NCBI GenBank assembly: GCA_937867335.1
Contig: CALMKX010000265.1
Coordinates: 1 to 50,839, forward strand
Direction of reading: 5' to 3'
From: an uncultured Acidobacteriota bacterium
Lineage (GTDB): Bacteria > Acidobacteriota > Thermoanaerobaculia > Multivoradales > SZUA-115
Length of the DNA: 50,839 bases
The position numbers and the translations under genes are program-made. Shown here in pieces: positions 7,447 to 39,831 of this stretch; within the stretch, counting starts at the first letter, position 1; the number at the start of each line of letters is the position of its first letter. Under the pieces are notes generated by a model. It saw nothing but the letters and a program-made list of their open reading frames with translations. It made no database searches and was not told where the DNA came from.

Positions 7447-9465
7447 TCAGGGCTTGATCACCAGCCGGGCGTCGAGGCCCGAGCGGGAGACGTCGATGTC
7501 GACCGATCGGCGATCCTCGGGGGTGATCTCGCGCTCGGTGTAGAAGGTCAGCAGGTACTGGCTGCGCAGCTCATCGTTGACCTCGGCGTAGGCCTGGCGC
7601 AGGCCGCCGACGTCCTCGGGGTAATACACCTTGCCACCGGTCTCCTTGGCGATGGCGGTGACTTCCATCGAAGCCGAGCCGTTGAGCGCCCGGCGGCCGC
7701 CGAGCACGATCATGTACACCGGCACGCCCAGGCGCCGGGCGTACTGGATCACCCGGTTGGGGCCCAGGCGGCTCTGGGTATCGGAGCCGTCGGTCATCAG
7801 GACCAGGGCGCGGCGGCCGGGGCTGCCCACGAACTCCATGAGCGAGAAGAGGATGGTGTCGTAGAGGGCGGTCGAGCCTTCCGCGCGCATGCCCACGAAG
7901 CTGTCCACCAGCTCCATGACGTTGCCGGTGGCCCGGTGGCGCAGGGTGGGGCGGTCCGAGAAGGACACCAGGAAAGCGCGGTCGGTCGGAGAGAGCACGC
8001 TGTCGAGGAATTGGGCGGCTGCCTGTTTGGCGTCTTCGAGCAGCACGTCCATGGAGCCCGAGTTGTCTACCAGCAGGCCCAGGTAGAGTGGCACCTCGGT
8101 GGCGAAGGCCACTCTCTCGAGGTTCTGCTTCTTGCCGTCGAGCTTGACGGTGAAGTCCTTCTTGGCGAGGTCCTTGACCGGGTGGCCCTGGCGGTCGGTG
8201 ACCACGCTGTAGAGCTCGACCAGGTTGACCTCCACGTTCTCCACCAGGCCGCCGTCCTGGAGCAGGCGGACGTCTTCCACGGCCCGGCCGTCGGTCAAGG
8301 CGGCGGCAGCCCGCAGGAAGGCGGTACTTGCCAGCTGGGCCGCTTTGACGGTGGCTCTGAGGGGCGCCGCCGAACCCCGCCCGAGCAGCTGGTCGCCGGC
8401 CCAGAGCTCCACTTTGTCGAGGCGCTCGCCGGGAGCGAGAGTGACCTGGGCTTCCACAGCGAGGTCGCCGTTCGGGGCCTTGTTGCCCACTTCGACGAGC
8501 TTCACCTTGAAGCTCTTGGTCACCTGGTTGACCGCCAGGGAATCTCGCCCCAGCTCGAGGCCCCTGGCATCGTAGGCGATGGCGGTCACGGTCTGGGGGT
8601 GATCGCGCCCGGCGAGCACCAGCCGGGCGACGAAGGGCTCACGCTCCTTGGTGGCGACGGTCTTGCCGTCGATCTGGTAAGCCACCTTCTGCACCGAGAT
8701 GTCCCCCAGCAGCGGCTCGAACGGAACCTCTCCGGAGAGCCGCTTGCCCCGGGGCGGCAGCAGGCGGATCACCGAACTCGGGCCGGTGGTGGGAGCGATC
8801 GGAACCGGGGCCGCGACCGCAGGAGGCAAGCCGGAGCCGGCGCCCGGGGCCGGAGGTGGAGTCGAGCCGCTGTCGGCCGGTAGGGCAGGCGCGGAGGGGG
8901 CAGACGGAGCCGGCGCCCGCTGGGCCGCGATCGCGTCGCCGCGCACGGACCACACGCCGGGGCGGATCGAGAAAGCGGCACTCTGGTCGAGCTCCGCGGG
9001 TTCGTCGAGAATCTCGGCCGGGGCCCCGCCCCAGAGATTGCCTTCCTGGGCCTCGACCAGCACCACCAGGTCTCGCATCTCGGCGGGAAGCTCGAGGGTT
9101 GCGTTGAGGCTCCAGGTCTGGGCGCCGGCCTTGTTCGCCGGGCTGAAGGCCTCGCGGCGGATCAACGTTTCGCCCTCGCGGTCCTCGAGCACCAGGGTCA
9201 CCTGGAGCTTGGGCAAAACGGCGTGGCCCTCGAACGGAGCGAGGTCTACCGAAACGGAGAGCGTGCCAATCTGGCTGTCGCTCTCGATCTGGCTAGGGTA
9301 GAAGGAGGCCTCCACCACCAACTCTCCGGCATCCTGTTCGCCGGAGAGCACAGCGTCGGCACGAGAGAGGGTGGTGCGGTCGAGCGAAGAGAGGCGGCCC
9401 GTTGGCTGGGCGGTCGCAGGCATGGCGACGGCGAGCAGGAGCAAGGCGGGGGTGGCACGCAGCAT
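7447..9465 (-). CDS. Secreted von Willebrand factor A domain protein (acidobacterial VWA type)
   Basis: 672 aa. ATG 9465 gives a clear signal peptide (MLRATPALLLLAVAMPATA); the open frame continues upstream, but that part only mirrors the genes on the opposite strand. Residues ~30-170 are beta-rich. A Pro/Ala linker (~180-240) follows, then Ig-like segments, then 'VEVNLVELYSVVTDRQG', the usual lead-in of acidobacterial VWA proteins. The VWA domain has an intact MIDAS (D467-NSGSM, later 'GSTALYDT' and 'LMTDGSD'). The C-terminus is 'YLLTFYTER...', typical of this family. It probably binds protein partners outside the cytoplasm in a metal-dependent way. Starts are only 33 nt from the divergent second VWA gene. 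Confidence 0.9.
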   Translation of the reverse strand: MLRATPALLLLAVAMPATAQPTGRLSSLDRTTLSRADAVLSGEQDAGELVVEASFYPSQIESDSQIGTLSVSVDLAPFEGHAVLPKLQVTLVLEDREGETLIRREAFSPANKAGAQTWSLNATLELPAEMRDLVVLVEAQEGNLWGGAPAEILDEPAELDQSAAFSIRPGVWSVRGDAIAAQRAPAPSAPSAPALPADSGSTPPPAPGAGSGLPPAVAAPVPIAPTTGPSSVIRLLPPRGKRLSGEVPFEPLLGDISVQKVAYQIDGKTVATKEREPFVARLVLAGRDHPQTVTAIAYDARGLELGRDSLAVNQVTKSFKVKLVEVGNKAPNGDLAVEAQVTLAPGERLDKVELWAGDQLLGRGSAAPLRATVKAAQLASTAFLRAAAALTDGRAVEDVRLLQDGGLVENVEVNLVELYSVVTDRQGHPVKDLAKKDFTVKLDGKKQNLERVAFATEVPLYLGLLVDNSGSMDVLLEDAKQAAAQFLDSVLSPTDRAFLVSFSDRPTLRHRATGNVMELVDSFVGMRAEGSTALYDTILFSLMEFVGSPGRRALVLMTDGSDTQSRLGPNRVIQYARRLGVPVYMIVLGGRRALNGSASMEVTAIAKETGGKVYYPEDVGGLRQAYAEVNDELRSQYLLTFYTEREITPEDRRSVDIDVSRSGLDARLVIKP

Positions 9466-34690: not shown

Positions 34691-34719
34691 CCGAGGGCAC
34701 CCAGCTCGGGTGCCCTCGG
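34691..34719 (+). terminator. Intrinsic terminator
   Basis: A perfect 12-bp stem, CCGAGGGCACCC (34691-34702) and GGGTGCCCTCGG (34708-34719), with loop AGCTC, followed by GCGTTTCG. It separates the sigma54-controlled unit from the FeoB-like gene. Confidence 0.75.
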
Positions 34720-34738: not shown

Positions 34739-36409
34739 ATGGCCGAGATGGCTCTACTGGCAGAGAGCAAGCCGGAAATCGCACCGCCGGTGGTGGCGGT
34801 GGTGGGCAAGGAGAGCGCCGGGAAATCCCAGCTGATCTCCTCGCTCACCCGCCAGAGCGCCTACTCGGCCAACTTCCGCGGCTCCACGCTTTCCTGCGAG
34901 ATCTTCGAGGATCCGGACGGCCGGACCTTCGTCGATACGCCGGGCATTCTGCGCCAGTCCGATTCGATCACCACCCGCCTCGCCCTCAACCAGCTCTCGA
35001 CGAGCGATGTCGTGCTGCTGGTGCTGCCGGCCACCCACGCCAAGGACGACTTGACCGAGCTTCTGCCGCTGGTGGAGGGCAAGTTCGGAGCCGTGGTGCT
35101 GACCTTCTGGGATCGCCTGCCGGACCGCCACCAGGCTTCCTCCCGCGAGCGCGTCGAGTCCCTGGCCTGCGCTTGCGGGGTCCAGGTGATCCCGGTCGAT
35201 GCGCGTTCGGTGAGCGCCGAACAGAGGCAGCAGATCCTCGACGCCCTCGAGAACCCGGCCCGCTTCGAGACCGGCAAGATGGAGCTCTGCCTGAGCTGGC
35301 GCTGCCTGCCGCGGCCGACGCTGCTGGAGAACCGCTGGCTGGGCCCGGTGCTCGCCTCCTTGCTCCTGCTCGGCCCGGCGGTCGCCGCCGTGTGGCTGGC
35401 GAACCAGCTGGCCGGCCTGCTCGATCCGCGGATCCAGAAGCTGGTGGCCCCTCTGGTGGCCGCCCTGGCAGGCCTGCACTCACTCCCCCACGAGATTCTG
35501 GCGGGGCCCTACGGGCTGATCACCATGGGTCCCCTGCTGCTGGTCTGGGCGGCGCCCACGGTGGCCCTGTTTTCGCTCGGCCTTGGGATCTACAAGGCGA
35601 GCGGTCTCTTGGACCGCATCAGCACGGCGATCCATCCGCTGATCCTCCGCGTGGGCCTGACCGGCCGCGACGTGGTGCGAGTGGTGATGGGCTTCGGCTG
35701 CAATGTGCCGGCGGTGATCAACACCCGCGCTTGCTCGAGCTGCTCTCGCCCGCCCACGGTGGCGGCGATCGCCTTCGGCTCGGCCTGCTCCTACCAGCTC
35801 TCCGCCACGCTTGCGGTGTTCGCGGCGGCGGGACGGCCGGGCCTCGCCCTGCCCTATCTGCTCTACCTGGTGGCGACCACGCTGATCTACCTGCGCCTGA
35901 CCTCGCCGGCGGCGGCTCGCTCGCCCCTGAACGTGCTGGTGGCCGGCCAGAACACCTTCCTCACCTGGCCGCGCTGGTCCAGCATCTGGCATGAGGCGCG
36001 GTTGGTGCTCGCTCACTTCTTCAAGACCGCTGTGCCGGTTTTCCTGGTGATCAGCGGGGTGGCTTCGCTGTTGAGCTGGCTGGGCGTGGTGCCGGCTTTG
36101 GCACGGCTGCTGGGGCCGGTGATGAGAGTCTTCGGGCTGCCGGCCGAGGCCGCGCTGCCGGTGGTGATGGCCTCGATCCGCAAAGACGGGCTGCTGCTCT
36201 TCGCCCAGCAAGACTCGCTCACGGGCTTGAGCTCGGCGCAGATCCTCACCGGAGTGTACCTGGCCGGTGTGTTGCTTCCCTGCCTGGTGACGGCCTTGAC
36301 CATCGGTCGTGAGCAGTCCCCCCGCTTCACCCTCAAATTGATGGCGCGGCAGGCCCTGGCGGCCTCGGTGTTCGCTTTCGCGCTGAGCTGGCTGGCCCGA
36401 CTCTGGTAG
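34739..36409 (+). CDS. FeoB-like GTPase/permease, short form with degenerate G4
   Basis: 556 aa versus ~700-780 for FeoB. The N-terminal G domain (~15-170) has G1 GKESAGKS and G3 DTPG, but G4 reads VVLTFWD instead of NKxD, so guanine specificity may be lost. The membrane part has about eight helices and carries the FeoB gate signature G318-FGCNVPAV. This is followed by 'NTRACSSCSRPP', where FeoB has other residues; the two extra Cys pairs could bind metal. FeoB-family proteins import Fe2+. There is no feoA or feoC nearby. ATG 34739 is very close to GGGAG; ATG 34748 is a possible alternative. It heads an apparent operon with the AAR-like gene 19 nt downstream. Confidence 0.82.
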   Translation: MAEMALLAESKPEIAPPVVAVVGKESAGKSQLISSLTRQSAYSANFRGSTLSCEIFEDPDGRTFVDTPGILRQSDSITTRLALNQLSTSDVVLLVLPATHAKDDLTELLPLVEGKFGAVVLTFWDRLPDRHQASSRERVESLACACGVQVIPVDARSVSAEQRQQILDALENPARFETGKMELCLSWRCLPRPTLLENRWLGPVLASLLLLGPAVAAVWLANQLAGLLDPRIQKLVAPLVAALAGLHSLPHEILAGPYGLITMGPLLLVWAAPTVALFSLGLGIYKASGLLDRISTAIHPLILRVGLTGRDVVRVVMGFGCNVPAVINTRACSSCSRPPTVAAIAFGSACSYQLSATLAVFAAAGRPGLALPYLLYLVATTLIYLRLTSPAAARSPLNVLVAGQNTFLTWPRWSSIWHEARLVLAHFFKTAVPVFLVISGVASLLSWLGVVPALARLLGPVMRVFGLPAEAALPVVMASIRKDGLLLFAQQDSLTGLSSAQILTGVYLAGVLLPCLVTALTIGREQSPRFTLKLMARQALAASVFAFALSWLARLW

Positions 36410-36428: not shown

Positions 36429-37529
36429 ATGCCGCCCTATCTCACCAAGCGCTCCCCCTGGTTCTCCTTCCTGGTGCACCCCCGCGGGCTCGAGGATCTG
36501 GACCACTTCAGCGCTTCGAGCCTCCTGCGCCGCTACAGCGAGAGCGAACAGGAGTACCTCGAGAAGTCCTACTCGATGAAGCCCTTCGTCGCCGCCAACC
36601 TGCAGATCCGGTCCACCCCGGCCTGGGGGGAGCTGGTGGCGGTGATGCGCCCACCCGAGGTGCTGATGACCTCCGCCGGGCGGCAAGAAGTGCATGCGGC
36701 GGTGGACGTGGCGCTGTCGCGAGGCACCAAAGTGGTGGGCCTCGGCGCCCTCACCAGCCCGGCCACCGGCGGCGGCCAGACCCTCCTCGCGGGCCTGCCC
36801 CGCGGCGTGACGATCACCAACGGCAACGCCTACACGGCGGCGGTGGTGCGTGGCAACGTGGTGGAAGCGAGCCAGTTCCTGGGCCTGGGCAACGCCGCCA
36901 GGGTGGGAGTGGTGGGCTGCACCGGCTCGGTGGGAGCGGCGGCCTCACAGCTGCTGGCCGAGGCGGGCTTCCCGCTGCTCCTGATCGGCCGCACCTTGAA
37001 GCGCGCTCTCCACCTGCTTCCGGAGCTGCAATCCGTGGCCGAGTTCTCGGGGGATCTCGAGGCTCTTGCGCAGGTGGAGATCGTGGTGCTCCTGACCAGC
37101 GACCCGACGGCGCTTCTGGTCCCCGAGCATCTGCGGCCGGGCACGGTGGTGATCGACTGCGCCCAGCCGGCGAACGTCACTGCTCCCGCGCCCTTCGAGG
37201 CCCGCGGCATCCGCGTCCGAGAAGGTGGCGTGGTGCGCATCCCCGGTTTCCACTGCGACTACGACTTCCGCTTCGAGCATCCGGAAGAGACCTTCGCCTG
37301 CATGGCGGAGACCTACCTCTACGCCCGCGAAGGCATCGCCACGCACTCGGTGGGTCGCGCCTCGGCGGTGCTCGCCCGCGAGATGGAGGCGATCGCCGAC
37401 CGGCGCGGCGTGAGCCCGCGCCCGCTTCGCCTGGAAGGCACGGAGCCGGCCCTGAGACTGACTCTCGAACCCGCCGATGTCGTGGCTCTCACCAGCCCCG
37501 AGCCGGCAGTGGGCGGGAGGGCGATGTGA
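36429..37529 (+). CDS. Rossmann dehydrogenase related to long-chain acyl-ACP reductase (AAR-like)
   Basis: 366 aa. The N-terminal ~120 residues include 'GLGALTSPATGGG' and 'TITNGNAYTAAVV', close in pattern to 'GGFSSIIFE...TTGNTHTAY' of cyanobacterial acyl-ACP reductase. An NAD(P)-binding motif follows: G163-CTGSVG169 ('VGVVGCTGSVGAAASQLL'). Cys occurs in 'GFHCDYDF' (a possible thioester site, unproven). AAR reduces acyl-thioesters to aldehydes; what this relative reduces is unknown. It lies between the FeoB-like gene and the small CPFC gene, overlapping the latter by 4 nt (ATGTGA), so they are translationally coupled. The RiPP-like peptides follow 0.5 kb downstream. Confidence 0.78.
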   Translation: MPPYLTKRSPWFSFLVHPRGLEDLDHFSASSLLRRYSESEQEYLEKSYSMKPFVAANLQIRSTPAWGELVAVMRPPEVLMTSAGRQEVHAAVDVALSRGTKVVGLGALTSPATGGGQTLLAGLPRGVTITNGNAYTAAVVRGNVVEASQFLGLGNAARVGVVGCTGSVGAAASQLLAEAGFPLLLIGRTLKRALHLLPELQSVAEFSGDLEALAQVEIVVLLTSDPTALLVPEHLRPGTVVIDCAQPANVTAPAPFEARGIRVREGGVVRIPGFHCDYDFRFEHPEETFACMAETYLYAREGIATHSVGRASAVLAREMEAIADRRGVSPRPLRLEGTEPALRLTLEPADVVALTSPEPAVGGRAM

Positions 37530-38002
37530 ACAGCTGCCCCTTCTGCGTGATCCTCGCCGCGATGGTGGCGCTGGTGCACCCGCGCCGGGAGCGCCTCGAA
37601 GGCGCCCTGCGCCGGGCCAGCTGGAGCGGCCGCTGGGTGGCCCGGAAGCTTCGCCGGGGCCGGCTGGAGGCCGCACCCACGGCCTGTCTCAGCGGCCTCG
37701 GAGCGCCGCGCTCGGGCGCTCTTCGCGGCAGTGTCCGCCGGCCAGCCCTAAGCCAGGTCTCGGCCGAGCTCCGGCAAGAGCGATCGCTCCACCTGGTGGC
37801 GCCGCAGCGGCTCTGCGGCCGCCGTCCCTCGAGGCCGCGGCGAGAGAGTTCGGCCGCAGGCGAGAGCGCTGGCGACGACGACCCAGCCCCAGCGCTTCCT
37901 TCGCCTCTCAAACCCACCCCATCCACAAACGGGTTTCCTCCCCTTCTGGTCCGTGGGCCGCCCAGGCCCACGGTGGGCCGTCCGTTTGTCGCTCCCGAGT
38001 AG
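37526..38002 (+). CDS. Small CPFC protein, translationally coupled
   Basis: 158 aa if the whole frame is used. GTG 37526 overlaps the previous stop in ATGTGA. It begins 'MNSCPFCVILAAMVALVHP', a CxxC redox or metal-type motif at the edge of a short hydrophobic stretch, then an Arg-rich helical part. Codon bias is gene-like for the first ~90 codons but poor afterwards, where the frame runs through a stem-loop (37951-37973). The functional product may therefore be shorter, or the 3' part degenerate. No family recognised. Confidence 0.45.
   Translation: MNSCPFCVILAAMVALVHPRRERLEGALRRASWSGRWVARKLRRGRLEAAPTACLSGLGAPRSGALRGSVRRPALSQVSAELRQERSLHLVAPQRLCGRRPSRPRRESSAAGESAGDDDPAPALPSPLKPTPSTNGFPPLLVRGPPRPTVGRPFVAPE
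37951..37973 (+). terminator. Stem-loop upstream of the peptide genes
   Basis: A perfect 9-bp stem, CCGTGGGCC (37951-37959) and GGCCCACGG (37965-37973), with a 5-nt loop and no clean T-run, 69 nt before the first peptide gene. It may terminate or stabilise, separating peptide expression from the upstream enzymes. Confidence 0.5.
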
Positions 38003-38041
38003 CCAACAACCCAGAGCAGCACCTCAACCAAGGAGATGACC

Positions 38042-38182
38042 ATGAACGCCGAGCAGTTCCAGATCGAAACCCTCGAAACCCGCCTCGAAATGCAGGTTGT
38101 CGTGACCGAGGCCGACGCCGCCGCCGACGACTGCGAGTGCGCCCCCGGCGAGTGCCCGGCCGCGCAGCTGCTCAACGGCTAG
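38042..38182 (+). CDS. Putative RiPP precursor peptide 1 (46 aa)
   Basis: 46 aa, ATG 38042 with AAGGAG 6 nt upstream (ATG 38036 also in frame but too close). The leader-like half 'MNAEQFQIETLETRLEMQ' is identical to that of the second peptide at 38261-38392 and the identity runs on to residue 23. The C-terminal half is 'DDCECAPGECPAAQLLNG' with Cys31, Cys33 and Cys38. A conserved acidic or amphipathic leader with a short Cys-containing C-terminus, next to a PqqD-M50 gene, is the layout of a ribosomally made, modified peptide. The core cleavage site and modification are not visible. Confidence 0.8.
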   Translation: MNAEQFQIETLETRLEMQVVVTEADAAADDCECAPGECPAAQLLNG

Positions 38183-38198
38183 TTGATCCACCGTTTCC

Positions 38199-38223
38199 CA
38201 GGGCCGGCATGGGGCTGGCCCTG
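38199..38223 (+). other. Stem-loop between the two peptide genes
   Basis: CAGGGCC (38199-38205) and GGCCCTG (38217-38223) with an 11-nt loop, followed by ATTCTCC. It may act as an mRNA stabiliser or partial terminator between the tandem precursors. Confidence 0.45.
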
Positions 38224-38260
38224 ATTCTCCAAAGCACCACCCAACCAGAAGGAGAGGACC

Positions 38261-38392
38261 ATGAACGCTGAGCAGTTCCAGATCGAGACCCTCGAGACCC
38301 GCCTGGAGATGCAGGTTGTCGTCACCGAGAGCTCGGACGCCACTTGCGAGTGCGACGCCGAGTGCCCCGCCGCCCAGGCTCTGCGCGGCTAG
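38261..38392 (+). CDS. Putative RiPP precursor peptide 2 (43 aa)
   Basis: 43 aa, ATG 38261 with AAGGAG 6 nt upstream, the same spacing as peptide 1. The first 23 residues are identical to peptide 1; the variable linker is shorter. The C-terminus is 'TCECDAECPAAQALRG' with Cys29, Cys31 and Cys35. C-E-C, E-C-P-A-A-Q and the final Gly are shared, while the spacer between the second and third Cys shrinks from four to three residues. Synonymous differences between the copies show the leader is held by selection on protein rather than being a recent copy. Confidence 0.8.
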   Translation: MNAEQFQIETLETRLEMQVVVTESSDATCECDAECPAAQALRG

Positions 38393-38399
38393 CCCTCAC

Positions 38400-38439
38400 G
38401 CGGGCGCGGTCCAATGCGGATCGCGCCCGCTCTTTCCTT
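38400..38439 (+). terminator. Terminator/attenuator between peptide 2 and the peptidase gene
   Basis: A 9-bp stem, GCGGGCGCG (38400-38408) and CGCGCCCGC (38422-38430), followed by TCTTTCCTT. Partial readthrough would give much peptide mRNA and little peptidase mRNA. Confidence 0.65.
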
Positions 38440-38478
38440 GTCAACGAACTGCTGCCAGGCGATCGAGAGCGTTCCGAG

Positions 38479-39831
38479 ATGACCTCAACCGCAGCCACCC
38501 TCGCCGCGCCCTGGGCCGGCCTCCGGCTCAAGCCGGGCTTTACGATCTCTCGCTTCGAAGGTACTCCGGACGAGCGCTATCTGCTCGAAGTGGGCAACAC
38601 CTGCTACGTGCTCAACCCGCCGATGCGCGAGTTGGTGCTGGCGCTCGAGGAGGGGCCGAAGGACCTCGCAGAGCTGGCGGCGATCGTGCGGCGGCGTACC
38701 GGCGAAGCCGTTTCCGTCGAAGTGCTCGAGGACGTGCTCGCCAAGCGGCTGCCGGCCGGGATCTTCGCCGATCAGCCGGACGAAGTGCCCAGGAAGCCCT
38801 TCTTCGTGAGCTTCCAGCTGCTTTCCTCGAGAGTGCTCGAGCCGATCACCCGGCGGCTCCACTGGCTGTTCCATCCCGCGCTCGCCGTCGCTGCCGTGCT
38901 CGCCTTCCTGGCGGTGGAGGCGCTGGTGCTGCCGCAGGCCGTGCGTCGAGTCCAGGGCGGCCTGGATTTCGTCGAGCTCGCGGTTCTCTACCTGGCCATC
39001 ATCGCGAGCGGCCTCATCCACGAGCTCGGGCATGCGACGGCCTGCTCCCGCTTCGGAGCTCCGCACGGCGGTGTGGGCTTCGGGCTCTACTTGTTTTTCC
39101 CGGCCTTCTACGCCGACGTCACCAAGGCCTGGAGGCTGCCGCCCCGCGAGCGGGCGGTGGTGGATCTCGGCGGGCTGTATTTCCAGTGCTTCCTGATGAT
39201 CCCGGTGGGCCTGTTGGCCTGGAAGAGCGGCCATCCGTTCCTGCTCCATCTGGTCTGGTTGATCAACTTCATGATGCTGATGACGCTCAACCCGATTCTC
39301 AAGATGGACGGCTACTGGCTGCTGTCGGACTTGAGCGGCTTGCGCAACCTGCACCGGTTGTTCGCCCAGACCGTGGTGTACTGGTTCGGCAGGCTCCGCG
39401 GCAAGGGCCAGAAGATGGCTCGGCTGGCGGAGATCACCGGCGCCAAGCGCTGGGTGCTCTACGCCTACTCGGCGCTCGCACTGGCCTATATCGGCTATCT
39501 CCTGCCCCTCGGAGTTGCGGCGGTTTCCGGCGTCGTCCGCAACTACCCGCACAAAGCTCAGGAGGTCTTCTCGCTCCTGGCCGCGCACTTCGCCCAGGGC
39601 GAGATGGCGGCCACCCTGAGCTCTCTGGGCAAGCTCCTCAACATCAGCGTCTGGCCGGCCATCCTGGGGTTCATCGTCATGCGCTTGAGCTTCAAGCTCT
39701 TCCGTCTTCTCTTCGTGCGTCTCCGCAGCGCGGTCCAGTGCCTGATCAAGGGCCTCTGCCATTGCCATCCGGCCGAGCAGGTGAGCGGCACGGTGGCCGA
39801 GAAGGCTTCGAACCAGCAGCCGATCTCCTGA
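38479..39831 (+). CDS. PqqD-like domain fused to M50 (site-2 protease type) membrane metallopeptidase
   Basis: 450 aa from ATG 38479; the frame is open upstream, but that part covers the terminator. Residues ~12-95 resemble PqqD/RRE peptide-binding domains ('YLLEVGNTCYVLNPPMREL', 'LEEGPKDLAELAAIVRR'). The membrane part contains the zinc motif H181-ELGH185 and the later 'NPILKMDGYWLLSDL' with Asp277, the third M50 metal ligand. About six hydrophobic segments. The C-terminus has CLIKGLCHCHP. Related 'peptide zinc metalloproteases' occur in RiPP loci, where the PqqD part grips the leader and the peptidase cuts or exports. The two 46- and 43-aa peptides upstream are the obvious substrates. Confidence 0.9.
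   Translation: MTSTAATLAAPWAGLRLKPGFTISRFEGTPDERYLLEVGNTCYVLNPPMRELVLALEEGPKDLAELAAIVRRRTGEAVSVEVLEDVLAKRLPAGIFADQPDEVPRKPFFVSFQLLSSRVLEPITRRLHWLFHPALAVAAVLAFLAVEALVLPQAVRRVQGGLDFVELAVLYLAIIASGLIHELGHATACSRFGAPHGGVGFGLYLFFPAFYADVTKAWRLPPRERAVVDLGGLYFQCFLMIPVGLLAWKSGHPFLLHLVWLINFMMLMTLNPILKMDGYWLLSDLSGLRNLHRLFAQTVVYWFGRLRGKGQKMARLAEITGAKRWVLYAYSALALAYIGYLLPLGVAAVSGVVRNYPHKAQEVFSLLAAHFAQGEMAATLSSLGKLLNISVWPAILGFIVMRLSFKLFRLLFVRLRSAVQCLIKGLCHCHPAEQVSGTVAEKASNQQPIS

Follow-up and report, generated by a model that had tools for sequence, protein, structure and literature searches.

Two paralogous precursor genes and a RiPP recognition element–site-2 protease fusion form a probable RiPP locus in an uncultured Acidobacteriota bacterium

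Introduction

How are short peptides with a conserved N-terminal half and a variable cysteine-containing C-terminal half processed when no classical maturase is encoded beside them? This question is raised by a contig of an uncultured Acidobacteriota bacterium (CALMKX010000265.1; the whole analysed stretch of 50,839 nucleotides is called the window), in which two such genes, pepA1 and pepA2, precede a gene for a PqqD-like domain fused to an M50 peptidase. The original prediction, made from the sequence alone, had described this set as a candidate new system for a ribosomally synthesized and post-translationally modified peptide (RiPP). We consider it very probable that the set is a RiPP locus, in which two paralogous precursors are served by a fusion of a RiPP recognition element (RRE) with a site-2 protease (S2P) acting as leader peptidase. 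This reading is strongly supported by the way the genes are built, by selection acting on the peptide, by the joint occurrence of leader and protease across phyla, by the predicted RRE and S2P folds, and by the intact protease motifs. The RiPP part of the prediction is thus supported; its novelty has to be restricted, since the RRE-S2P module has a precedent in daptides (PMC10036551). The three genes are as follows.

38042-38182, + strand: pepA1, encoding a 46-aa precursor MNAEQFQIETLETRLEMQVVVTEADAAADDCECAPGECPAAQLLNG, with a leader at about residues 1-17 ending in ETLETRLEM and a three-Cys core CECAPGECPAAQLLNG
38261-38392, + strand: pepA2, encoding a 43-aa paralogous precursor MNAEQFQIETLETRLEMQVVVTESSDATCECDAECPAAQALRG with a diverged core CECDAECPAAQALRG
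38479-39831, + strand: RRE (PqqD-like, residues ~15-99) joined to a site-2/M50 intramembrane protease with HELGH and NPILKMDGYW; presumed leader peptidase

The precursor genes

Residues 1-23 are identical between the two products and the C-terminal halves are diverged, exactly as had been read at first. Over these residues the DNA differs at six codons, and all six differences are third-position and synonymous; because every codon difference in the leader is synonymous, this looks at the DNA level like a mark of selection on the peptide and is hard to explain otherwise. An AAGGAG ribosome site lies 6 nt before each start (pepA1, AAGGAGATGACC-ATG; pepA2, AAGGAGAGGACC-ATG), and because of this spacing the pepA1 start at 38042 appears preferable to the alternative ATG at 38036. 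The third-position G+C content (GC3) is 0.91 in both genes, matching that of the neighbouring genes (0.88-0.90).

The acidic cores, each with three Cys and a C-terminal Gly and not rich in aliphatic residues, are separated by substitutions and gaps, yet retain C-E-C-x(3,4)-C-P-A-A-Q-x-L-x-G. The locus therefore has what defines a RiPP precursor: an encoded peptide with a conserved leader and a variable core, whose homologues share the leader motif and vary in their cores. No further convincing pepA copy was found in the genome, and no sigma-70 promoter was found near pepA1.

The RRE-S2P fusion

The HELGH motif of the protease occupies residues 181-185 and NPILKMDGYW residues 271-280; H181, E182, H185, P272, D277, and G278 are invariant among 30 relatives. 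By sequence, the N-terminal domain resembles PqqD only weakly (TIGR04353, E=0.0038, over a stretch at residues 43-91), and the Pfam PqqD profile does not match it. In an AlphaFold2 model built from a 30-sequence alignment (predicted local distance difference test, pLDDT, 87.7), three strands followed by three helices are seen at residues 22-89, with the membrane protease after them; this order of strands and helices is that of the RRE fold (PMC12710340). In structural comparison, the model resembles SpoIVFB (Z 9.3) and MjS2P (Z 8.9) over residues 110-395; its first part, residues 5-99, is matched by PqqD (5sxy, Z 6.7) and by the leader-bound lasso B1 structures 5v1u and 6jx3 (Z 7.3). These domain matches came from VIA-align; a Foldseek search with the whole protease model gave no match at E<0.001.

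The N-terminal domain is thus, by its predicted fold, an RRE, which upholds the proposed PqqD-M50 fusion in spite of the weak sequence match. The HExxH motif, the distal NPxxxxDG motif, and the S2P fold of the predicted model together place the remainder among the site-2/M50 proteases. The protein is a distant relative of the daptide and epipeptide proteases; it scores 104.4 bits against the daptide_HExxH family NF041824, whose curated cut-off of 300 is not reached. No close relative at E<=1e-40 was found among 396 genomes of its own phylum.

Distribution of leader peptides and RRE-S2P proteases

Searching GTDB genomes with an alignment of the protease yielded 80 loci. In Massilia, Janthinobacterium, Duganella, another Burkholderiales metagenome-assembled genome (MAG), Pseudoalteromonas, and Lysobacteraceae, a PepA-like small open reading frame (ORF) immediately precedes the protease gene; in two further MAGs, one from Eisenbacteria and one unclassified, it lies farther upstream, with two enzyme genes intervening. 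When a 19-residue leader profile (hidden Markov model) was run against 24,162 small ORFs, it matched in loci of Acidobacteriota, Bacteroidota, Chloroflexota, Cyanobacteriota, Myxococcota, and others, and the best composition-shuffled control ORF reached only E=8.6. Counting one start per ORF at E<0.05, a leader ORF is present in 44 of 75 RRE-S2P loci. All 59 leader matches are upstream of the protease, on its strand, and within about 4 kb, including all 40 in loci outside the profile seed. Had relatives lacked homologous small ORFs beside their PqqD-M50 genes, the original prediction would have been refuted; such ORFs do occur, always on the same strand, and relatives of the same order are among the carriers.

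In the nearest relatives (L020-L026, L030, L034), the precursor-like ORF has no Cys in the leader and one to three in the core. None of the non-daptide precursors tested reached an NCBIfam cut-off. The sampled RRE-S2P loci carry varied putative enzymes, which resemble squalene-hopene cyclases, radical S-adenosylmethionine (SAM)/SPASM proteins, or LpxL-like acyltransferases.

Several individual loci deserve mention. In L042, L062, and L043, leader peptides and an RRE-S2P gene stand beside proteins of 650-690 aa that are distantly like squalene-hopene cyclase, far under the family cut-offs, and are possibly a maturase or tailoring enzyme. Upstream of the RRE-S2P gene in a Holophagales MAG (L082, 5544-6098), three precursors stand in tandem; their leaders are nearly identical, and they have CCVDGGG cores. 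In an Acidobacteriota genome of the same family as ours (L015), two daptide-like short ORFs (8052-8171 and 8262-8366, - strand) lie directly upstream of another PqqD-M50 gene, and one of them reaches NF041808 (25.1 bits, cut-off 25).

In the open-access literature we found no description of a wider RRE-S2P family with such precursors, most subscription journals being outside this coverage. The RRE-S2P module, so far linked to daptides mainly in Actinomycetota and Bacillota, is now tied to leader peptides with Cys cores that form a family spanning several phyla. Its neighbours are enzymes without an assigned role (acyltransferase-like, squalene-cyclase-like, and acyl-ACP reductase (AAR)-like). 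With the leader profile, the family as a whole becomes open to genome mining, and in the window three genes form a compact case for studying leader removal by an RRE-S2P.

The acyltransferase-type sister clade

In the maximum-likelihood tree, the window protease falls into a clade with 11 others (support 100/98). These are its closest relatives, with a best-segment identity of 37-44% for the top seven, and their hosts are Oxalobacteraceae, Pseudoalteromonas, Lysobacteraceae, Eisenbacteria, and others. Since the protease clusters with those of Pseudomonadota and Eisenbacteria and not with other Acidobacteriota proteases, its position in the tree suggests horizontal transfer.

Each of the 11 other members has genes for an LpxL-like protein (PF03279) and for an unannotated partner protein. 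The model of this partner (pLDDT 65.6, moderate) matches the acyltransferases PatA and LpxM with Z 12.3-10.9, well over unrelated rows. LpxL-type proteins carry the acyltransferase motif HX4(D/E); the LpxL-like proteins examined here have HYGNF or HYGPF with A, P, or I as the next residue, so that the acid of the motif is lost. A set of Cys-core precursor, RRE-S2P, PatA/LpxM-like partner, and LpxL-like protein recurs in several phyla (L020-L026, L030, L031, L034, and L036; the L031 sequence starts at the protease, and its precursor region is not visible). This set seems to be a RiPP class not described before, perhaps a lipidating one.

The LpxL-like gene and the partner are absent from the window, and a search of its draft genome (391 contigs) did not reveal the small acyltransferase-like partner. 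The genome has two LpxL-type genes at other places; these were considered as possibly serving the pepA locus and were rejected, as both stand in unrelated settings without the partner.

Neighbouring genes and DNA elements

Three ORFs upstream of pepA1 and a hairpin downstream of pepA2 complete the neighbourhood.

34739-36409, + strand: FeoB-like GTPase-permease with GTPase and Gate domains and GFGCNVPAV retained, 19 nt before the AAR-like gene
36429-37529, + strand: AAR-like acyl-thioester reductase with a GxxGxxG NADPH motif and Cys291 aligned to Cys294 of cyanobacterial AAR; candidate maturase
37526-38002, + strand: "CPFC" ORF, a doubtful gene; GC3 0.92 over the first ~60 codons, then 0.73
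38400-38430, + strand: 13-bp hairpin with a T-rich tail, TCTTTCCTT, between pepA2 and the protease gene; -29.8 kcal/mol, z=-6.4

The AAR-like protein retains both the NADPH Rossmann motif and, in a phmmer alignment to 6jzq, the equivalent of Cys294, which we take to be the catalytic Cys of cyanobacterial AAR. Its score against TIGR04058 (59 bits, cut-off 449.7) makes it a distant homologue and not an AAR equivalog. Between its gene and pepA1 lie about 510 nt that look mostly non-coding. No relatives with a RiPP context were found in GTDB contigs, plasmids, IMG/VR, and 297 Acidobacteriota genomes, nor in 18 genomes carrying an RRE-S2P and 189 genomes of the Polyangium phylum.

The FeoB-like protein probably serves metal transport. 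A second locus of the genome with two Gate domains, C209, is perhaps a true FeoB. In four other Acidobacteriota genomes, relatives of the FeoB-like gene have a flavoprotein beside them where that side is visible, and no RRE-S2P stands near them; conversely, no FeoB-like gene was found at the RRE-S2P loci. Pairing of a FeoB-like GTPase-permease with an FAD/NAD(P) oxidoreductase is seen in L112-L114 and L116. The genes beside the relative in L112 are, as we read their sequences, presumably CobW- and FolE-like, and this context suggests that the metal is not iron but perhaps zinc.

Adjacency and strand favour the inclusion of the AAR-like and FeoB-like genes in the locus and the comparative data do not; because neither accompanies the RRE-S2P family elsewhere, we regard both as candidate members only. 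The "CPFC" ORF, which had also been listed as a gene, shows no family match and no homologue was found for it; from its composition it would be coding at most over the first ~60 codons, and it remains doubtful as a gene.

The hairpin at 38400-38430 is a probable partial terminator, which would hold the protease below the precursor level. Another strong hairpin (12 bp, 34691-34719), without an Rfam match, lies ~20 nt 5' of the FeoB-like start codon and is possibly a terminator or attenuator. The Rfam search gave no real match.

Proposed mechanism and alternative explanations

We suppose that the leader motif F-Q-I-E-x-L-E-x-R-L-E-M docks into the RRE cleft and that the membrane S2P domain then cuts just past it, by analogy with daptides, which are cleaved after ELExxxxx (PMC12670281). 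This would release a core (CEC...ECPAAQxLxG) that is acidic, has three Cys, and is about 20-29 residues long, probably along with its export from the cell. Several observations weigh against such a RiPP locus. The RRE Z values (6.7-7.3) are modest if taken alone, and 31 of the 75 RRE-S2P loci have no leader ORF at the threshold, some being cut by contig ends or having divergent leaders. In addition, the window genes that were scanned include no recognised maturase, in line with the original remark that no classical one is adjacent, and a dedicated transporter is not adjacent either. The AAR-like reductase would be the sole candidate modifying enzyme in the neighbourhood.

That the small ORFs are spurious can hardly be believed: they are short, and G+C-rich DNA easily yields chance ORFs, but chance does not account for synonymous-only leader differences, matching ribosome sites, coding-like GC3, and homologues in other phyla. 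For the fate of the core, several readings compete. The core may be a secreted peptide or signal that is unmodified or solely disulfide-bonded, with the RRE-S2P as its lone processing enzyme, an option that we hold to be unlikely but deserving serious attention. In the Acidobacteriota loci L059 and L064 the leader ORF stands directly beside the protease with no same-strand enzyme gene directly upstream, and TMcins provide a precedent for S2P-type leader removal combined with a disulfide (PMC13252029); however, the other sampled RRE-S2P neighbourhoods hold putative modifying enzymes. The metal-handling alternative, in which the core binds a transition metal that the FeoB-like permease transports, so that the peptide acts as a metallophore or buffer, is improbable in our opinion. 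It draws on the CxC and acidic residues of the core, on the FeoB GFGCNVPA motif, and on the setting in L112, which we presume to be one of metal limitation, but the FeoB-like relatives and the RRE-S2P loci do not meet elsewhere, and there is only one Cys in some of the sister cores.

A fatty-acyl modification is a rather unlikely explanation, slightly less so than a metal-handling role. Here the AAR-like enzyme would make an aldehyde from an acyl thioester, which would be joined to the peptide, for example via Cys, before release by the RRE-S2P, thus replacing the acyltransferase pair of the sister clade. The constant presence of that pair in the 11 relatives, the preserved Cys and GxxGxxG of the AAR-like protein, and the fact that known relatives of both enzyme types act on acyl thioesters are consistent with this idea. 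Against it stand the gap before pepA1, the failure of any other locus to link AAR to peptides, the lost HX4(D/E) acid, which weakens even the acyltransferase role of the LpxL-like relatives, and the modest confidence of the partner model. Extending the idea, one can suggest, speculatively and with a little less conviction still, that the window and the sister clade together make up a new class of RiPPs, whose Cys core gains a fatty-acyl-derived group before RRE-guided S2P release, the ELExRLE leader and the RRE-S2P being an interchangeable chassis for chemistry that varies by phylum. If so, the sisters use an acyltransferase pair, the acyl-thioester reductase of the window makes an aldehyde, and the chemistries fitted to the chassis include squalene-cyclase-like, radical SAM, and acyl-transfer ones.

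An assignment to daptides has next to nothing to recommend it, although the protease has some similarity to the daptide family and the leader resembles ELExMEAP. The score lies far under the cut-off, the core is not aliphatic-rich, the C-terminal residue is Gly instead of Thr, and no aminotransferase, alcohol dehydrogenase, or methyltransferase occurs among the neighbouring genes scanned. With both the C-terminal Thr and the daptide enzymes missing at the locus, we rejected this assignment.

Comparison with known systems

Among the systems compared with the RiPP locus proposed here, lasso peptide B1/B2 proteins resemble it in that an RRE hands the leader to a peptidase, as reflected in the match of the window RRE model to the TbiB1-leader complex; unlike them, the window locus shows no lasso cyclase. 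To our knowledge, lasso B2 is not an S2P metalloprotease. The sister clade shares the leader, the small Cys core, and the closest proteases, and differs in having the partner, for which no gene was found in the genome of the window, and an LpxL-like gene, which is not beside the window peptides.

The epipeptide protease YydH/LiaK/EpeP is likewise an M50 intramembrane protease that has a RiPP as its substrate (PMC10885120), and the window protease matches its family NF058609, although with 47 bits against a cut-off of 225, and the radical SAM epimerase is not beside it. In pearlins (3-thia-amino acids; TglG/TmoG) an M50 protease frees the product from a scaffold peptide (PMC10885120); however, no pearlin biosynthetic genes are among the window genes scanned, and the window precursor is presumably cut at the leader/core junction, whereas pearlins are trimmed to a single C-terminal residue. 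TMcins share an S2P-type RiPP protease (PMC13252029).

The closest parallel is offered by daptides (Mpa/Dap), found by genome mining, with an RRE-S2P fusion, the leader motif ELExMEAP, and, by definition, an invariant C-terminal Thr in the precursor (PMC10036551, PMC12670281). Several small precursors per locus, the RRE-S2P fusion, and an ELE-type leader (xLExRLEM in the window) are common to both. In contrast to daptides, the window precursors lack the C-terminal Thr and have Cys-containing, non-aliphatic cores; the oxidative decarboxylase pair, the pyridoxal phosphate-dependent aminotransferase, and the SAM methyltransferase are missing from the neighbouring genes scanned, and the protease falls far beneath the daptide family cut-off. 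The combination of RRE-S2P and ELExMEAP leader already described for daptides means that the module is not wholly new; the window locus belongs to a wider RRE-S2P family and probably works like the daptide RRE-S2P step, but is not a daptide.
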